From Fulvimarina manganoxydans (GTDB taxonomy: Bacteria > Pseudomonadota > Alphaproteobacteria > Rhizobiales > Rhizobiaceae), in contig NZ_FWXR01000022.1 of NCBI RefSeq assembly GCF_900176465.1, positions 1 through 64,000 of the forward strand: 64,000 nucleotides of DNA, in the 5' to 3' direction. Every line of letters begins with the position of its first letter. The first letter of the stretch is position 1. The position numbers were made by a program, and so were the translations under genes. Positions 6,293 to 13,383 of this stretch are shown here, one piece after another. Under the pieces are notes generated by a model. It was given only the letters and a program-made list of their open reading frames with translations, was not told where the DNA came from and searched no databases.

Positions 6293-6645
6293 GCTTGGCC
6301 ATCTAAGGAGACCATCACAAAAGCATAGGGCTGAGGATGAAGGCGCCGGCGATGGCATTGTCATGGGGCTTACCTGCCTGCCCAATAGGCAGGATATGAC
6401 GCAAGGATAGGCATTTGCTGGGCTCAGTTGCCGATCACGAGCGTCCTCACGAGACGGTGGCGGCGATCTCGGCTTTGCGAAGAGGCAAAGCGCCAATGCG
6501 GCAGATTGCCTCCGCAGCACTGGGGGGCAACCGGACAAGGAGTTCGGAAATTCGCCGGGCTGTAGAACGGCGCCCATGACATTCACATGTCTTATTGGCG
6601 CACCAAGTCACGTCGTATCCCCACGGCACCGCACTTCAGAATAAG

Positions 6646-6800
6646 AGCGAGCCTCGACACTTCGTCATTCTCGGTCTCCGGACCGAGAATCCAGAGCGGC
6701 GTTTCAAGCTACGGAAACCATGGAGGAATGCTATCTTGCACCGCTTTTGGGCGGCGCCAAGCCTGGATTCTCGGCACGGTGGCCGAGAATGACGATGCGT
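6646..6800. repeat. 155-bp hairpin-ended intergenic element, family B copy 1
   Basis: The element begins AGCGAGCCTCGACACTTCG and ends GAATGACGATGCG. Near each end is a perfect hairpin: ATTCTCGGTC/GACCGAGAAT on the left and ATTCTCGGC/GCCGAGAAT on the right, and the outer edges form CGTCATTCTCGG...CCGAGAATGACG terminal inverted repeats. A second copy in opposite orientation is at 56955-57108. No coding capacity is evident. It looks like a small non-autonomous mobile or REP/MITE-like element. The region 6293-6987 holds nothing else I can support. Confidence 0.75.
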
Positions 6801-6987
6801 GGCGGTGGGCGGCTTAAATCTCAACGGGTGGGAAAGTTGATACGCCGTCAGGCTGCTGATGTTGTTGCGTCTGGCGGACTTGTCGATTTCGTCAGCATGA
6901 GGCGGGCAAGAGCGTTTCATGACAGCTACCACCAACCCCGGACGGTAACCTAAACTTCCATTATTGCACATCGAGCAAAAAGCGGTC

Positions 6988-7003
6988 TGGCACGACCCTT
7001 GCA
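6988..7003 (+). promoter_or_regulatory. Sigma-54 (RpoN) promoter of the guanidine operon
   Basis: TGGCACGACCCTTGCA fits the sigma-54 consensus TGGCACR-N4-TTGCW at every position, with the -24 GG at 6989-6990 and the -12 GC at 7001-7002. The start of transcription would fall near 7013-7015, just before the first paired base of the riboswitch at 7016, which supports both assignments. Sigma-54 promoters need an enhancer-binding activator such as NtrC, which would link the operon to nitrogen status. Confidence 0.85.
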
Positions 7004-7015
7004 ACGTTTCTCATC

Positions 7016-7144
7016 GTGCGGTGCGTCTAGGGTTCCGGCTCGTCTTCATCCTTCAAGGTGGGACGGGTGGCTGGTCCGAGAGACGCACTCCCCGCCGGCC
7101 GGCGGGGAGACACGGCGGGCCAAAATCCCGGGAGAACGCCGCAC
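7016..7144 (+). ncRNA. Guanidine-I (ykkC) riboswitch aptamer
   Basis: All conserved blocks of the ykkC class are present in order: CTAGGGTTCCG (7027-7037), CTGGTCCGAGAG (7071-7082), ACACGGCGGG (7110-7119) and CCCGGGAGA (7127-7135). P1 forms between GTGCGG-TG-CGT (7016-7026) and ACGCCGCAC (7136-7144) with a two-base bulge. A GC-rich peripheral stem (CCCCGCCGG / CCGGCGGGG) sits between the second and third blocks. The class senses free guanidinium and usually turns on genes for its export or breakdown, in agreement with the genes that follow. Confidence 0.95.
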
Positions 7145-7175
7145 GGACCCGCGCGAGAAGCGGGCCGTCTCCCGG
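7128..7175 (+). promoter_or_regulatory. Riboswitch expression platform (anti-aptamer pairing)
   Basis: TCTCCCGG at 7168-7175 is the exact complement of CCGGGAGA at 7128-7135, the conserved 3' block of the aptamer. It can therefore compete with ligand-binding folding. A small hairpin CCCGC/GCGGG (7148-7164) lies inside the alternative stem. There is no clear U-run, so control may act through a weak terminator, Rho access or downstream structure. The leader to the first ATG is about 275 bases. Confidence 0.55.
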
Positions 7176-7178
7176 TCC

Positions 7179-7192
7179 TTATCGCGCGATAA
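7179..7192. promoter_or_regulatory. 14-bp perfect palindrome in the operon leader
   Basis: TTATCGCGCGATAA is a perfect palindrome just after the anti-aptamer strand and 98 bases before the first gene. It could be part of the RNA platform or a DNA operator for an unknown regulator. No factor can be named. Confidence 0.4.
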
Positions 7193-7290
7193 CCTCGTCG
7201 GTCGCTCCGGCTTGATGAGGCAAGGAAGAGATAGAGCGGGGTCGTGACGAAACGCCCGGCGCTCTCAAGCGACGAAAAGGATGACGCTTC

Positions 7291-8352
7291 ATGAAGATGC
7301 TCGCCTCCGCCCTGGCCCTCACCGCCGCGACGATCCTCGCCACACCCGGCGCCACATTCGCGCAAGAAAAGACCGACTTCTCGGTCTGCTGGTCGATCTA
7401 TGCCGGCTGGATGCCCTGGGGCTACATGCAGGATTCAGGCATCTTGAAGAAATGGGCGGACAAATACGGGCTGACCATCGAGGCGGTGCAGATCAACGAC
7501 TATGTCGAATCGATCAACCAATACACCGCCGGCCAGTATGACGGCTGTTCGATGACCAATATGGACGCCCTGTCGATCCCGGCCGGCGGCGGCGTCGACA
7601 CGACCGCCCTCATCGTCGGCGACTATTCCAACGGCAATGACGGCATCGTCCTGAAGGGCGAAGGCGAGGACACGCTGGAAAAGATCGCGGGCCAGTCGGT
7701 CAATCTCGTCGAGCTTTCGGTCTCCCACTATCTTCTCGCCCGCGCCCTCGACACGGTCGGCCTGTCGGAGCGCGACATCACCGTCGTCAACACCTCCGAT
7801 GCGGACCTCGTCGCCGCCTATCAGACGCCGGACGTCACTGCCGTCGTCACCTGGAATCCGCTGCTCTCGACCATCAAGGCGATGCCGGAGTCCCACGAGG
7901 TCTTCGATTCCTCCCAAATTCCCGGCGAGATCATCGATCTGATGGTCGTCAACACCGACACGCTTCAAGCCAATCCCGATTTCGGCAAGGCTCTGACGGG
8001 GGCCTGGTACGAGACGATGGAGCTGATGCAATCGGGCGACGAAGAGGCGCTCAGCGCCATGGCAGCGGCCTCGGGCACGGATCTTCAAGGCTATAAGGAT
8101 CAGCTCGCCACGACGCAGATGTTCTACGAGCCGGCGCAGGCGGTCGACTTCACCAAGTCGGAGAAGCTGCCCGAGACGATGACCTTCGTCGCGAACTTCC
8201 TCTTCGACCACGGCATTCTCGGCACCGGGGCGCCGAGCGCCGATTTCGTCGGCATCGCCTATCCGGGCGACAAGACGACGGGCGACACGAACAACATCAA
8301 GCTGCGTTTCGATACGACCTACATGCAGATGGCCGCCGACGGCTCCTTATAA
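7291..8352 (+). CDS. Guanidine ABC transporter, periplasmic substrate-binding protein (NMT1/TauA-like)
   Basis: 353 residues with a Sec signal peptide (cleavage likely after TFA at residue 24). The mature part resembles the NMT1/TauA-like binding proteins often annotated as putative urea transporters next to urea/guanidine carboxylase genes: FSVCWSIYAGWMPWGYM, NQYTAGQYDGCSMTNMDALSIPAGGGVDTTALIVGDYSNGNDG. It is the first gene behind the guanidine-I riboswitch. AAAAGGA lies 9 bases before the ATG. By context the ligand is guanidine or a guanidino compound. This is inference, since nitrate, sulfonate or thiamine-precursor binders share the fold. Confidence 0.88.
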   Translation: MKMLASALALTAATILATPGATFAQEKTDFSVCWSIYAGWMPWGYMQDSGILKKWADKYGLTIEAVQINDYVESINQYTAGQYDGCSMTNMDALSIPAGGGVDTTALIVGDYSNGNDGIVLKGEGEDTLEKIAGQSVNLVELSVSHYLLARALDTVGLSERDITVVNTSDADLVAAYQTPDVTAVVTWNPLLSTIKAMPESHEVFDSSQIPGEIIDLMVVNTDTLQANPDFGKALTGAWYETMELMQSGDEEALSAMAAASGTDLQGYKDQLATTQMFYEPAQAVDFTKSEKLPETMTFVANFLFDHGILGTGAPSADFVGIAYPGDKTTGDTNNIKLRFDTTYMQMAADGSL

Positions 8353-8364
8353 GGGAACCGGACC

Positions 8365-9186
8365 ATGCGGCTGATCAACCGCAAGCCCACTCGCCCGGCG
8401 CGCGTCGCGCTGGGCGCCCTGCCCTTCTTCTTGGCGATCCTGGCTTACGCCATCGGCAGCGCGATCCGCCGGGCGGAAAACCCGGCCGACAAGCTCCTGC
8501 CCTCCTTCGAGGCGATCGCGGCGGCCTTCTCCAACATGGCCTTCGTCGCCGATCGGCGGACGGGCGACTATCTTCTTTGGGTCGACACCTTCGCCAGCCT
8601 CGAGCGGCTGGCGATCGGTATGGCGATCGCCGCGTTTCTGGCGCTCGTCCTGGGCCTTCTGATCGGCGTCCTGCCGATCGGGCGGGCGCTGTTCTCGCCC
8701 TTCGTTTCGGCCTTCTCGCTCATCCCGCCGATCACCGTCCTGCCGATCCTCTTCATCGTTCTGGGGCTCGGCGAGGCGGCGAAGATTGGCCTCGTCGTCG
8801 TCGGCACCGCGCCTTTGATGATCCGGGCACTCGGCCAGGCGATCCTCGACATTCCGCGCGAACAGATCGTCAAGGCCGAGACCCTCGGTGCCTCCACCTG
8901 GCAGATGACGATGCGGGTGATCCTGCCGCAGCTCTGGCCCCATCTCATCCGCGCCGTGCGCCTCGGCCTCGTCCCTGCCTGGATATTCCTGATCTCGGCC
9001 GAAGCCATCGCCTCGACCGAGGGACTCGGCTATCGCATCTTCCTCGTTCGCCGTTATCTCGCCATGGATGTGATCATCCCTTACGTCCTATGGATCACGC
9101 TTCTCGCCTATGCGATCGATCGGGCGCTCGCCCTTCTGTCGAAGCGTCTCTTCGGATGGGCGCATCTCGCGGGGGAAAGCCTATGA
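8365..9186 (+). CDS. Guanidine ABC transporter, permease
   Basis: 273 residues, a BPD_transp_1 permease of the TauC/SsuC type with about six membrane segments. The cytoplasmic EAA loop that contacts the ATPase is readable around residues 172-190 (EQIVKAETLGASTWQMTMRVILPQL). It starts 12 bases after the binding-protein gene, and its stop codon overlaps the ATPase start (ATGA at 9183-9186), so translation is coupled. One permease gene implies a homodimeric channel. Confidence 0.9.
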   Translation: MRLINRKPTRPARVALGALPFFLAILAYAIGSAIRRAENPADKLLPSFEAIAAAFSNMAFVADRRTGDYLLWVDTFASLERLAIGMAIAAFLALVLGLLIGVLPIGRALFSPFVSAFSLIPPITVLPILFIVLGLGEAAKIGLVVVGTAPLMIRALGQAILDIPREQIVKAETLGASTWQMTMRVILPQLWPHLIRAVRLGLVPAWIFLISAEAIASTEGLGYRIFLVRRYLAMDVIIPYVLWITLLAYAIDRALALLSKRLFGWAHLAGESL

Positions 9187-9965
9187 GCTTCGTCACCGCC
9201 CGCCAGATCGCCGTCTCCTATGGCGATGCCCTCATCCTGGAACGAGTGTCGCTGGAGGTTCAAAAAGGGGCCTTCGTCACCATTGTCGGCGCGTCGGGCT
9301 GCGGCAAGTCGACCTTTCTGCGCATCCTTCTCGGCCAGGAGCAGCCGTCCTCGGGCCATGTAGAGATCGACGGCCACCCCATGGCGCCCGAGCCGGACCC
9401 CGAACGCGGCGTCGTCTTCCAGAAATATTCGGTCTTCCCGCATCTGACCGTCTTGCAAAACCTGATGCTCCCCTTCGAGCTGGAGGGATCGGCCTTTCTC
9501 GGCCGCGTTTTCGGGGCACGGAAGCGCGAGGCGCGGGACAAGGCGCAAGCGATGATGGAGACGATCGGTCTTGCCCACGCCGCGAAGCGGTTTCCCGCCC
9601 AATTGTCGGGCGGCATGCAGCAGCGCCTCGCCATTGGCCAGGCGCTCCTCAAACGCCCGAAGATTATGCTCCTCGACGAGCCCTTCGGCGCGCTCGATCC
9701 CGGCACGCGCAAGGACATGCAGGCGCTTCTCCTGGAGCTGTGGCGCGAGACCGGCATGACCGTCTTCATGGTCACCCACGACATTCAGGAGGCGTTCGAA
9801 CTCGGCACGCGCCTCCTCGTCTTCGACAAGGTGCGCCACGACCCGCAATATCCGAACGCCTATGGCGCGACCGTCACCTACGACCTGCCGCTCGACCATG
9901 GCGAACGCAAGAAGACCGCCGCCATCGAAGCGGCCCTCATCCAATCGCAAACGGACAAGGCCTGA
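9183..9965 (+). CDS. Guanidine ABC transporter, ATP-binding subunit
   Basis: 260 residues of the TauB/SsuB/NrtD type. Walker A GASGCGKST is at 36-44, Q-loop Gln at 80, signature LSGGMQQR at 141-148, Walker B IMLLDEP at 161-167 and the switch His at 199. The C-terminal ~50 residues (after LLVFDKVRHDPQYPNAYGATVTYDLPL) are typical of the putative urea/guanidine transporter ATPases. It energises the permease upstream and is followed after three bases by the hydrolase gene. Confidence 0.9.
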   Translation: MSFVTARQIAVSYGDALILERVSLEVQKGAFVTIVGASGCGKSTFLRILLGQEQPSSGHVEIDGHPMAPEPDPERGVVFQKYSVFPHLTVLQNLMLPFELEGSAFLGRVFGARKREARDKAQAMMETIGLAHAAKRFPAQLSGGMQQRLAIGQALLKRPKIMLLDEPFGALDPGTRKDMQALLLELWRETGMTVFMVTHDIQEAFELGTRLLVFDKVRHDPQYPNAYGATVTYDLPLDHGERKKTAAIEAALIQSQTDKA

Positions 9966-9968
9966 AGC

Positions 9969-11186
9969 ATGAACGACACCCGTTTCGACCAACCCGCCCG
10001 CACGAGCCGCAAGGCCGGTGCCCGCAAAGGCCCAACGCGCACCCGGCTGCACCACCCCAATTTCGACGCCAAGGAAACGCGCGGCTGGAAGGCTTTGGAA
10101 GCCGAGGACAAGCTCTCGGCGGAAGGCTGGAAGCGCGAGGTTAAATGGGCGCTCGACATGGGCCTGCCCGGCGCGGACTCCATCACCGATAAGTCGATCC
10201 CGACCTTCGCGCGCGGCGAGCTTCCCCATTTCGCCGGCATCAACACCTTCCTGAAGGCCCCCTACGTCGAGAATGTGCGCGACGTCGGCAAATACGACGC
10301 CGCCGTTCTCGGCATTCCCTTCGATAGTGGCACGACCTACCGGCCCGGCACCCGCTTCGGGCCCCAGGGCATCCGCCGCATCTCGGCCCTCTACACCACC
10401 TATAATTACGAACTCGGCGTCGATCTGCGCGAGCAGATGACCTTATGCGACGCCGGCGACGTCTTCACCATTCCCGGCAATCTGGAAAAGTCGTTCGACC
10501 AGATCTCGCGCGGTGTCTCCCACGTCTTCTCGTCCGGGGCCCTCCCGATCATGCTCGGCGGCGATCACTCGATCGGTTTCCCATGCGTGCGCGGCATCGC
10601 CGAATGCACCTCCAAGCGCATCGGCATCATCCATTTCGATCGGCATATCGACATCCAGGAAAAGGATCTCGACGAGCGCATGCACACGACGCCCTGGTAT
10701 TGGGCGACGAACCTGCCGAATGTGCCGGCGGTCAATCTCGTCCAGCTCGGCATCGGCGGCTGGCAGGTGCCCCGCCCCGGCGCCAAGGAGGCCTATAAGC
10801 GCCAGACCAACGTCCTCACCATCGAGGATATCGAGCATTATGGCCTCGAAAAGACCGCCGAGATCGCGCTGGAACTCGCCTGGAAGGACGCCGACGCGGT
10901 CTATATCTCCTTCGATGTGGACAGTCTCGATTGTGGCTTCGTACCCGGAACGGGCTGGCCGGAGCCGGGCGGCTTCCTGCCGCGCGAAGCCTTGAAGATC
11001 CTCGGCCTAGTCTCGGCGCCCGGCATTTGCGGCCTCGAAGTGGTCGAGGTCTCGCCGCCCTACGACACCTCCGACATCACCGCGCTGATGGGGGTCCGGG
11101 TCTGCGTCGAGGCGCTCGGCTCCATGTGCGCCCATGGCACGATGGGCAAACACAAGAGCATCATCGACAAGCCGGTGGCCTTCTGA
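9969..11186 (+). CDS. gdmH: Guanidine hydrolase-type ureohydrolase (GdmH family, agmatinase superfamily)
   Basis: 405 residues, longer at the N-terminus than ordinary agmatinases (~300), as in the cyanobacterial guanidine hydrolase GdmH. Metal-ligand motifs are GGDH (His200), FDRHID (Asp224, His226, Asp228) and SFDVD (Asp316, Asp318). The second motif reads D-R-H-I-D instead of the D-A-H-x-D usual in agmatinase, and FVPGTGWPEPGG (324-335) replaces the usual DPxxAPG region. Both are features I associate with the GdmH group, which hydrolyses guanidine to urea and ammonium with nickel. Position behind a guanidine-I riboswitch and transporter makes guanidine the likely substrate. Homologues are often mis-annotated as agmatinase. 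Confidence 0.88.
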   Translation: MNDTRFDQPARTSRKAGARKGPTRTRLHHPNFDAKETRGWKALEAEDKLSAEGWKREVKWALDMGLPGADSITDKSIPTFARGELPHFAGINTFLKAPYVENVRDVGKYDAAVLGIPFDSGTTYRPGTRFGPQGIRRISALYTTYNYELGVDLREQMTLCDAGDVFTIPGNLEKSFDQISRGVSHVFSSGALPIMLGGDHSIGFPCVRGIAECTSKRIGIIHFDRHIDIQEKDLDERMHTTPWYWATNLPNVPAVNLVQLGIGGWQVPRPGAKEAYKRQTNVLTIEDIEHYGLEKTAEIALELAWKDADAVYISFDVDSLDCGFVPGTGWPEPGGFLPREALKILGLVSAPGICGLEVVEVSPPYDTSDITALMGVRVCVEALGSMCAHGTMGKHKSIIDKPVAF

Positions 11187-11209
11187 TCACCGGGCAGAGG
11201 ACGAGACCC

Positions 11210-11686
11210 ATGCATCGCGGTCACGACGACCATTTCCATCCCTATGACATGCCGCACGGCCATATGGGCGCTGGGCACAATGCTCAGGCGACGGCCCAAT
11301 GGCAGCTGCCCCACGAGCATCACGCCCATGGCGGCGAGTCGCAGGACCACCATCACGAGGCGGATTTCGACCTCGTCGAAAAGGCCTTCGCGGAGGGCTT
11401 TTATGCCGCCAGCGATCCGACGAGCTTCCTGAGGCTCGCCGGGGTGCCCTTCCGCGCCAGGACGAGCGAGGGAACCGACCTCTCGCTTCTCCGGGTGGAA
11501 GAGACCTTGCGCGTCGACACCGGTTCTCTCGCCCCCCATCTCGGGGGCGGGAGCTTTCGCTACGACCCGCTCCCCGCCGCCATGATCTCCAAGCGCCGAG
11601 CGCTTGCCTTCCAATATTTCGACGGCAGCGAGGTGAGAACCTTGTCGCTCGAAGAGGCGCGAGGTCTGGAGCGGATCGAGCCGTAA
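11210..11686 (+). CDS. Histidine-rich protein of the guanidine operon, candidate nickel carrier
   Basis: 158 residues. The first 50 contain 14 histidines (positions 2, 5, 8, 10, 16, 18, 23, 35, 37, 38, 40, 47, 48, 49) plus several Asp/Glu, like the metal-storage tails of nickel chaperones such as HypB or UreE. Residues 53-158 (from FDLVEKAFAEGFYAASDPTS) look like a small globular domain I do not recognise. It is the last gene before a terminator and starts 23 bases after the hydrolase, with AGAGGAC as ribosome-binding site. GdmH enzymes need nickel, so a metallochaperone role is the natural hypothesis. HypA/HypB-like GhaA and GhaB genes are not in this window. Confidence 0.75.
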   Translation: MHRGHDDHFHPYDMPHGHMGAGHNAQATAQWQLPHEHHAHGGESQDHHHEADFDLVEKAFAEGFYAASDPTSFLRLAGVPFRARTSEGTDLSLLRVEETLRVDTGSLAPHLGGGSFRYDPLPAAMISKRRALAFQYFDGSEVRTLSLEEARGLERIEP

Positions 11687-11703
11687 GATCAGGAAGGCCC
11701 AGA

Positions 11704-11745
11704 AGCGCCGGCCGGTCGAAGGATGCCCGCCCGGCGCTATTCTTT
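11704..11745 (+). terminator. Terminator of the guanidine operon
   Basis: AGCGCCGG (11704-11711) pairs with CCGGCGCT (11731-11738) and is followed by ATTCTTTC. It lies 18 bases after the histidine-rich gene and before the next gene, which marks the operon end. Confidence 0.6.
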
Positions 11746-11778
11746 CGCCCTGATCCCCATCAGGAAAGCGCCGATCTC

Positions 11779-13383
11779 GTGAAGCTGCCCCACGTTCCGA
11801 TCTATGCCTCGCGCCGCTCGCCGGTCCTTGCCCGCAATGTGGTGGCGACATCCCAGCCGCTGGCCGCAGAAGCCGGAATCGCGGCCTTGCGGCGGGGCGG
11901 CAATGCGGTGGATGCCGCGCTCGCCGCCGCGATCACGCTCACCGTCGTCGAGCCGACCGGCAACGGTCTCGGCAGCGACGCCTTCGCCATTCTCTGGGAC
12001 GGCAACCGTCTCCACGGCCTCAACGCATCCGGCCGCAGCCCCCGCGCCTGGACGCCCGACCGCTTTGCCCACCGCGAGGCGATGCCCGCCACCGGCTGGG
12101 AGAGCGTCACGGTTCCCGGCGCCGTCTCGGCCTGGGTCGCACTGTCGGAGCGCTTCGGGCGCCTGCCCTTCGCCGATCTCCTCAGCGATGCGATCCGCTA
12201 TGCCGAAGACGGCTTTCTCGTCTCGCCTATCATCGGCGCGCTCTGGGCGCGTGGCGCGTCGATGCTCTCCGGCGAGCCCGGCTTTGCCGCCCATTTCATG
12301 CCGGGCGGCCAAGCACCGAAGGCCGGCGAGACCTTCGCCAGTCCCGATCTCGCCCGCTCCTTGCGGCTGATTGCCGAAAGCCGGGGCGAGGCCTTCTATC
12401 GCGGCGAACTCGCCGAGCGCATGGCGCGCTTTGCCGCCGACAACGGTGCGGCGCTGACTTTGTACGATCTCGCCGCCCATGAGGCCGACTGGCCGGGCAC
12501 GATCCATCAGGGCTTTGCGGGCCGCGAGGGGGCGGTCGATCTTCATGAAATCCCGCCCAACGGGCAGGGCATCGCGGCACTGATGGCGCTCGGCATCCTC
12601 GAGCATTGCGGCATCGAGCGTTTCGCGCCCGACAGCGCCGATGCGCTGCATCTCCAGATCGAGGCGATGAAGCTCGCCTTTCGCGACGTTTCGGCCTTCG
12701 TCGCCGATGCGCCCCATATGACCGATCCGAGCACGTCCGATCTCCTCGCCCCGAGCTATCTGAAGGCGCGGGCCGCGCTCATCGATCAGGATAGGGCGAT
12801 CGACTTTCAGTCCGGCGCGCCGAAGGCGGGCGGCACGGTCTATCTGTCGGCGGCCGACGAGGCCGGGATGATGGTCTCCTTCATCCAGTCGAATTATGCC
12901 GGCTTCGGCTCGGGCGTCGTCGTGCCGGGCACGGGCATCTCGCTGCAGAATCGCGGCGCGGGCTTCTCGCTTCGCCCCGACCATCCCAATCGCGTCGGCC
13001 CGGGCAAGCGGCCTTTCCATACGATCATTCCGGGTTTTCTCATGCGTGAAGGGGTGCCGGTCGCGAGCTTCGGCGTCATGGGCGGGCCGATGCAGGCCCA
13101 GGGCCATCTCCAGATGACGCTGCGCACCCAAGTCTGGGATCAGGACCCGCAAACGGCGATCGACGCGCCGCGTTGGCGGGTGATCGAAGGGCTCGCCGTC
13201 GCGGTGGAGCCGGCTATCGGCGAAAAGGTCCTCGCCGATCTGAGCGCGCGCGGCCACGAGCTCAGCCTGGAGCCGCCCGAGGCGAGCTTCGGCTTCGGCG
13301 GCGCGCAATTCGTGGCGAAGATCCCCGGCGGCTATGTGGCCGGCTCCGACCCGAGAAAGGACGGCGCGGCGGTGGGGTTTTAA
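11779..13383 (+). CDS. Gamma-glutamyltransferase-family Ntn hydrolase (YwrD/oxamate amidohydrolase-like)
   Basis: 534 residues from a GTG at 11779 preceded by AGGAAAG. The protein follows the GGT fold: ATSQPLAAEAGIAALRRGGNAVDAALAAAITLTVVEPTGNGLGSDAFAILWD near the N-terminus, and an autoprocessing Thr353 in KAGGTVYLSAADEAG, where the precursor should split into two subunits. No signal peptide is present, so it should act in the cytoplasm. FGSGVVVPGTGISLQNRG differs from classical GGT and matches the YwrD/HpxW-like branch, so glutathione, gamma-glutamyl compounds or oxamate are candidate substrates. A terminator separates it from the guanidine operon. Confidence 0.85.
   Translation: MKLPHVPIYASRRSPVLARNVVATSQPLAAEAGIAALRRGGNAVDAALAAAITLTVVEPTGNGLGSDAFAILWDGNRLHGLNASGRSPRAWTPDRFAHREAMPATGWESVTVPGAVSAWVALSERFGRLPFADLLSDAIRYAEDGFLVSPIIGALWARGASMLSGEPGFAAHFMPGGQAPKAGETFASPDLARSLRLIAESRGEAFYRGELAERMARFAADNGAALTLYDLAAHEADWPGTIHQGFAGREGAVDLHEIPPNGQGIAALMALGILEHCGIERFAPDSADALHLQIEAMKLAFRDVSAFVADAPHMTDPSTSDLLAPSYLKARAALIDQDRAIDFQSGAPKAGGTVYLSAADEAGMMVSFIQSNYAGFGSGVVVPGTGISLQNRGAGFSLRPDHPNRVGPGKRPFHTIIPGFLMREGVPVASFGVMGGPMQAQGHLQMTLRTQVWDQDPQTAIDAPRWRVIEGLAVAVEPAIGEKVLADLSARGHELSLEPPEASFGFGGAQFVAKIPGGYVAGSDPRKDGAAVGF

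Follow-up and report, generated by a model that had tools for sequence, protein, structure and literature searches.

A predicted guanidine-assimilation operon of Fulvimarina manganoxydans with a sigma-54 promoter, a guanidine-I riboswitch and a histidine-rich GdmH partner

Organization of the operon

The window analyzed here, a stretch of 64,000 nucleotides from Fulvimarina manganoxydans (contig NZ_FWXR01000022.1 of assembly GCF_900176465.1, positions 1 to 64,000), carries on its forward strand an operon for the predicted import and hydrolysis of guanidine. The operon opens with a sigma-54 promoter element (6988-7003) and a guanidine-I riboswitch aptamer (7016-7136), followed by three genes of an ABC importer, a gene for a predicted Ni-dependent guanidine hydrolase (gdmH) and a gene for a histidine-rich protein. 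An initial annotation, made from the letters alone, had recognized the promoter, the riboswitch, the ABC importer and a GdmH-type hydrolase, and it left the fifth gene unnamed. Our results support that reading of the visible parts, which was modest in scope.

The importer is encoded by genes for a substrate-binding protein predicted to bind guanidine (7291-8352; TIGR03427, 558 bits against a cut-off of 334), a permease (8365-9186; PF00528) and an ATPase (9183-9965; PF00005). The identification of the product of 9969-11186 as a GdmH-type guanidine hydrolase holds on sequence comparison, and Ni-dependent hydrolysis of guanidine is predicted for it. Its best solved relatives are 7esr/7oi1 (E 2e-159, 534 bits) and 9fek (E 6e-159), while the next solved protein that is not a GdmH, a guanidinobutyrase, reaches 171 bits (E 4e-49). 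The window protein and the solved enzymes have in common GGDHS, DRHxD and SFDxD, which we take to be the metal-ligand motifs of GdmH. The tryptophan of GTGWPEPGG is also common to the window protein, 7esr/7oi1 and 9fek and corresponds approximately to Trp313 of Nitrospira inopinata, as placed by alignment with a two-residue numbering offset. In the available text of PMC11410670, 7OI1 is GdmH of Synechocystis, 9FEK is the guanidinase of N. inopinata, and a tryptophan at the Trp313 position is one criterion for a guanidinase. Agmatinase was rejected as a name for this gene, as TIGR01230 scored 166.9 against a cut-off of 174.3 and the solved relatives are GdmH.

The fifth gene (11210-11686), which we label hisR, encodes the 158-residue histidine-rich GdmH partner. 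All five genes share one strand and are tightly packed: the permease gene starts 12 nt behind the first gene, the ATPase gene overlaps it by 4 nt, and gaps of 3 nt and 23 nt precede gdmH and hisR. The terminator with which the initial annotation closed the transcript fared less well. A stem of AGCGCCGG and CCGGCGCT followed by ATTCTTTC (11700-11746, forward strand) is plausible as a terminator, and its folding energy is not clearly above chance (z -1.3, with 17/200 shuffles equally good). The output of a terminator scan did not include this hairpin, which may end the operon.

Sigma-54 promoter and guanidine-I riboswitch

The promoter element (TGGCACG-N4-TTGCA, here with ACCC as the spacer) agrees at 12/12 fixed positions with what we take to be the sigma-54 consensus. 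It ends 12 nt before the aptamer, and transcription would presumably start at about 7014, 2 nt 5' of the aptamer, if the usual sigma-54 convention applies. The aptamer is a full-length match to Rfam family RF00442 (model positions 1-107 of 107) at 84.1 bits against a gathering score of 63. This covariance-model comparison, the check suggested by the initial annotation, confirms 7016-7136 as a guanidine-I riboswitch, for which guanidine binding and an effect on expression are predicted. RF00442 was the only Rfam family above cut-off in the window, and this was the sole guanidine-I match found in the genome.

The sigma-54 motif by itself proves little because it matches the genome perfectly 6 times, and its reversed form does so 3 times; position and conservation carry the case. 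When the upstream region of the window was aligned with those of 12 relatives, the fully conserved columns were the sigma-54 site and the start of the aptamer, and the DNA around this block otherwise aligned poorly. Among the best 80 named gdmH loci, a site with at most 2 mismatches is found 9-13 nt 5' of the aptamer in 48 loci, with a gap of 11 nt in 33 and 12 nt in 12. For 16 of these 80 loci nhmmer gave no aptamer match under E 1 and the core motif was used instead; no aptamer core was found in 4/80 (L052, L064, L069 and L077), of which at least two are cut upstream by a contig end. The window has the GG and GC elements of a sigma-54 promoter at fixed spacing near the predicted transcript start, in conserved form, and its genome encodes rpoN (PF04552 at G000:C37).

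To see how far this arrangement extends, RF00442 was searched in 387 alphaproteobacterial genomes (38 with a match) and 397 genomes across the phylum Pseudomonadota (57 with a match). The resulting sample contains 104 aptamers over cut-off in 84 genomes, 51 of them alphaproteobacterial and 53 from other Pseudomonadota; an aptamer starting at a contig end (L115) and 8 alphaproteobacterial aptamers below the gathering score stand outside it. Sites with at most 2 mismatches were scored in the 120 nt upstream and the first 4 nt of each aptamer. Such a site was detected at 87/104 aptamers, namely at 39/51 in Alphaproteobacteria, where dinucleotide shuffles expect 1.1 and the reversed motif gives 1, and at 48/53 in other Pseudomonadota, where the corresponding values are 0.67 and 0. 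TPP riboswitches served as a control and showed a site at 1/29 loci (30 fetched, minus the short L247); the 8 aptamers below the gathering score showed none. The distance between site and aptamer is 4-13 nt in Alphaproteobacteria and 33-83 nt in other Pseudomonadota, with one exception at 12. Sites occur in 16/18 alphaproteobacterial and 13/15 other families that have aptamers, although kinship within families remains and aptamer counts are not independent events. Carboxylase-type guanidine-I operons in the sample carry sigma-54 sites as well. Judged by these sequences, sigma-54 with guanidine-I is a widespread arrangement in Pseudomonadota and not peculiar to this genome, so the single alphaproteobacterial operon of the initial annotation exists but is one case of many.

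The predicted dependence on sigma-54 can also be viewed from the sigma factor itself. Searching all 84 aptamer genomes for rpoN (PF04552) left five, all of family f21, with no match over cut-off (one has a sub-threshold match). The site is present at 0/5 aptamers in these genomes compared to 87/99 elsewhere (Fisher p 6.7e-5). The sigma-54 site is likewise missing from two named plasmid loci of Rhodobacterales that carry the five genes of the window operon, which suggests that f21 may belong there.

Other observations weigh against sigma-54 control. Seventeen of the 104 sampled aptamers have no site and 12 of these are in rpoN-bearing genomes, including G674, a sixth f21 genome with rpoN matches. 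In the named set, 28/80 loci have an aptamer core and, within 420 nt, no site of 2 mismatches or fewer. Many of these are from Ancylobacter, where the switch is mostly directly 5' of gdmH, or from Sinorhizobium or Ensifer; in two of the 28 (L014 and L074), a site with 3 mismatches is found at the usual position. TATACT-like boxes were seen by eye in Sinorhizobium loci without a sigma-54 site, and a strict sigma-70 scan found 2/28. The site-less loci, together with a genome-wide motif count only twice that of the reversed control, could mean that the match in the window is a chance motif and that an unseen sigma-70 promoter drives the operon. We regard this as highly improbable: the site is conserved in both sequence and position, genomes without an rpoN match also lack it, and no sigma-70-like site was found by a scan of 6600-11900. 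Conservation, the controlled samples and the missing sites in genomes with no rpoN match over cut-off support the use of sigma-54 by this operon, as far as sequence can indicate it.

A candidate expression platform (7128-7182, forward strand) begins within the aptamer, where CCGGGAGA (7128-7135) is able to form a stem with TCTCCCGG (7168-7175); TCCTTAT comes next. Complementarity of this type of at least 7 nt occurs in 39/76 loci, with a mean of 6.5 versus 4.8 in base shuffles; the 76 comprise 75 named loci with the motif and the window, and many are close Mesorhizobium relatives. The wider sample speaks against a general switching hairpin, with means of 5.8 versus 5.6 in shuffles for Alphaproteobacteria and 6.1 versus 5.8 for the others. 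A generic intrinsic terminator behind all sampled aptamers was rejected on this basis. Folding 7014-7200 alone as a single strand favours aptamer-type pairing. We take the 7128-7135/7168-7175 hairpin as the putative expression platform in the group of the window and not as a general rule. An outer helix of 7 nt that would close the aptamer (7015-7021 with 7139-7145) is present in the window group and appears supported only in part, since outer helices of at least 5 nt are found at 11/51 alphaproteobacterial aptamers versus 2.7 with swapped partners and at 4/53 versus 3.0 elsewhere.

Two further observations concern the distribution of these systems. In one genome (G621), two guanidine-I aptamers stand in back-to-back orientation on the two strands (L230). 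Each has a sigma-54 site of its own; one aptamer precedes a binding protein and the other precedes genes of a UAAP/carboxylase cluster. Relatives of the binding protein of the importer are often carried by plasmids (235 records, including 124 from Rhizobium and 73 from Pantoea), and no Burkholderia was seen among the 60 of these 235 records that were listed.

The histidine-rich fifth protein

In an alignment of 47 family members, which has 20 invariant columns, the fifth protein begins with a stretch rich in histidine, continues with QWQxPH and ends in a conserved C-terminal part. The stretch ahead of QWQxPH contains a median of 13 histidines in 38 residues across the family (range 2-25) and 7 in 29 in the window protein; cysteine is absent in 40/47 members. 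No Pfam or NCBIfam family matched the window protein, hence neither HypA nor another chaperone family, and no PDB sequence matched the family profile. At E values up to 1, Pfam matched three families with one member each of the 47, the best being ZrgA zinc uptake at E 0.017; these matches were not used. The predicted model is confident in the C-terminal part, with means of 91-97 per ten residues from residue 61 on. Foldseek found no match to this model under E 1e-3, which does not by itself establish a new fold. VIA-align against double tudor and other solved folds reached Z values up to 6.2 over 42 residues, a similarity that may be without meaning.

The gene is closely coupled to gdmH. In 79/80 named loci it is on the same strand, with the match starting 11-464 nt past gdmH; in the one exception, L003, the gene is found at another place in the genome. 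In the class sample of 387 genomes, gdmH was found in 13 and the partner in 15, and the partner is beside gdmH in 13/13. Two of the 374 genomes without gdmH have the partner: G107, with a weak match containing a stop, and G309. The latter has an apparently collapsed operon (L142) in which the aptamer is followed by a fragment of the substrate-binding protein gene overlapping the histidine-rich gene, and no gdmH was found in this genome at E 1e-90. A six-frame search also found family-profile matches at three alphaproteobacterial plasmid loci. Urease alpha is present in 13/13 gdmH genomes. HypA occurs in 3/13, on other contigs, and was not found in the other 10, the genome of the window included; HypB was not searched genome-wide.

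These results make a GdmH-specific nickel loader the simplest reading of the fifth protein. Metformin and dimethylguanidine hydrolases, which are related enzymes, depend on HypA/HypB according to the available text of PMC11399263. For the N. inopinata guanidinase, nickel loading is called unclear and no known chaperone is described in the corresponding part of PMC11410670. This last case, together with four actinobacterial gdmH loci (L269, L270, L273 and L274) in which a six-frame search within 5 kb gave no family-profile match, goes against the proposal in so far as a loader would not be a universal need. Nor does a histidine-rich composition prove a connection to nickel.

Histidine-rich proteins can also store metals, and the conserved C-terminal residues could bind GdmH as a subunit. 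Instead of a chaperone, the fifth protein could accordingly be a subunit of GdmH with a structural or regulatory role, or serve as a store or sink for nickel, an alternative that we consider possible and the less probable one. The tight coupling to gdmH (13/13 versus 2/374) suits a GdmH-specific role better than a store and says nothing against a subunit; the nickel loader remains the reading that we carry forward.

Nitrogen control and guanidine assimilation

A sigma-54 promoter requires an activator, and we infer that this is likely NtrC in F. manganoxydans because of NtrC-like dyads upstream in relatives, transcriptome data from an ntrC mutant and the guanidine preference of urea carboxylases. 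The outline of an NtrC site, TGC-N11-GCA, was compared with spacings of 3-16 in the 200 nt 5' of sigma-54 sites. It is present in 15/48 non-alphaproteobacterial regions (other spacings 3-12), 18/39 alphaproteobacterial regions (1-9) and 16/48 named loci (1-11), and in 1/5 and 3/12 of the regions at aptamers without a sigma-54 site. A fuller NtrC consensus reaches a score of 10 or more of 14 in 38/48 non-alphaproteobacterial regions where about 8 are expected. In seven close relatives (L002, L004, L005 and L007-L010) the dyad lies 89-103 nt 5' of the sigma-54 site; what the window retains of the dyad in the upstream alignment is a weak, degenerate remnant at 6892-6908 of the forward strand.

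According to RNA-seq data in the available part of PMC5491218, an ntrC mutant of Burkholderia cenocepacia H111 has reduced expression of I35_7283-7286; the 'urea carboxylase' I35_7286 is at log2 -6.0, and the table gives no fold value for 7283 and 7285. As NtrC-dependent importer and carboxylase genes, these resemble the guanidine operons considered here. They were reported as urea use, and the words 'guanidine' and 'riboswitch' occur 0 times in the main text of PMC5491218. According to the available text of the review PMC12186494, guanidine is the preferred substrate of urea carboxylases controlled by guanidine-I, and about 75% of urea carboxylase genes are predicted to encode enzymes that use guanidine. 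The B. cenocepacia operon is probably a guanidine carboxylase operon. In our sample, two representatives of the clusters without gdmH match UAAP1 and urea carboxylase models, the latter as a fragment below cut-off.

Points against NtrC come mostly from the window and its class. No TGC-N11-GCA was found in 6701-6987, and in Alphaproteobacteria the fuller consensus is only modestly enriched (13/39 versus about 6 expected). An E. coli-type NtrC site was considered in the window, but the best candidate, 10 of 14 at 6737 and 251 nt upstream, is not convincing. Sigma-54 could instead act with a different activator that senses products of guanidine breakdown or another cue. The lack of a clear NtrC site in the window and the loose fit of the enriched alphaproteobacterial dyad to the full E. 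coli consensus would agree with this. We nevertheless consider it unlikely, given the good NtrC-like sites in non-alphaproteobacterial upstream regions and the NtrC dependence of the B. cenocepacia operon (PMC5491218, in the part available), and retain NtrC as the probable activator.

We propose a guanidine-assimilation operon with two locks and a nickel-delivering fifth protein, and estimate a probability of about 0.74 for this explanation as a whole. The first lock would be the sigma-54 promoter with its activator, most likely phosphorylated NtrC, allowing transcription to start only when nitrogen is short. The second would be the guanidine-I riboswitch, whose first helix would begin only a few bases from the predicted transcript start. 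When guanidine is absent, 7128-7135 would pair with 7168-7175 and transcription would stop early; when it is present, the aptamer would hold the 7128-7135 strand and transcription would continue. The ABC transporter would then import guanidine and GdmH would convert it to urea and ammonium, with the urea finished by a urease encoded elsewhere in the genome. The fifth protein, with its histidine-rich N terminus, would take the part of HypA/HypB-type chaperones and supply GdmH with nickel. A bolder generalization is tentative, and we would put it somewhat short of an even chance: that the fifth protein represents a new family of GdmH-dedicated nickel insertases unrelated to HypA/HypB and UreE, which would explain the nickel supply of alphaproteobacterial guanidinases, and that guanidine-I in Pseudomonadota is a two-key system, in which sigma-54/NtrC would report nitrogen status and the RNA would report guanidine, with the alphaproteobacterial promoter at a fixed position from which the RNA would start with the switch.

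Parts of this arrangement are known from other systems. As in the window, the gdmH operon of Synechocystis combines a guanidine-I aptamer, an enzyme of the GdmH family (7esr/7oi1) and an ABC importer, and passes urea to urease (PMC12186494, available text). It has accessory nickel-delivery proteins, whereas the window has a histidine-rich protein of no known family. A further difference is that cyanobacteria, to our knowledge, do not have sigma-54. The guanidinase locus of the comammox bacterium N. inopinata shares guanidine-I and a GdmH-type enzyme (9FEK) with the window; unlike the window, it has an APC permease and no ABC importer, and no nickel chaperone was found there according to the available text of PMC11410670. 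Guanidine carboxylase operons of enterobacteria and other Pseudomonadota resemble the window in guanidine-I, an importer and nitrogen assimilation (PMC12186494, available text), but have carboxylase and UAAP-type proteins in place of GdmH, as seen in two cluster representatives. The available part of PMC12316311 reports 102 sigma-54-regulated COG3665 genes in the alpha, beta and gamma classes, 59% of them called urea carboxylase, and contains 'guanidin' 0 times; because of this report, the link between sigma-54 and guanidine is already partly visible in print. In the library searched, which includes few subscription papers, we found no publication tying guanidine-I to sigma-54 or NtrC and none joining a guanidinase with a histidine-rich protein. 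The parts are of known kinds, and the architecture and the partner protein were not found described in the literature searched.

The surroundings of the operon have features of their own. A gamma-glutamyltransferase gene (ggt, 11779-13380) is directly 3' of the operon, and ggt also lies three genes past gdmH on a plasmid of Rubrobacter radiotolerans. A gamma-glutamyltranspeptidase (I35_7874, log2 -4.8) is listed in the ntrC-mutant table in the available part of PMC5491218. The DNA that separates the operon from the divergent gene contains two copies (6667-6690 and 6767-6790) of a palindrome, ATTCTCGG-N8-CCGAGAAT, which was found 0 times in 100 shuffles.

If most guanidine-I switches of Pseudomonadota are behind sigma-54 promoters, reporter work in nitrogen-rich conditions would miss their output. 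Published NtrC regulons would then contain some guanidine genes under the name 'urea carboxylase'. The histidine-rich partner is a direct candidate for the nickel supply of guanidinases that have no HypA/HypB neighbours.

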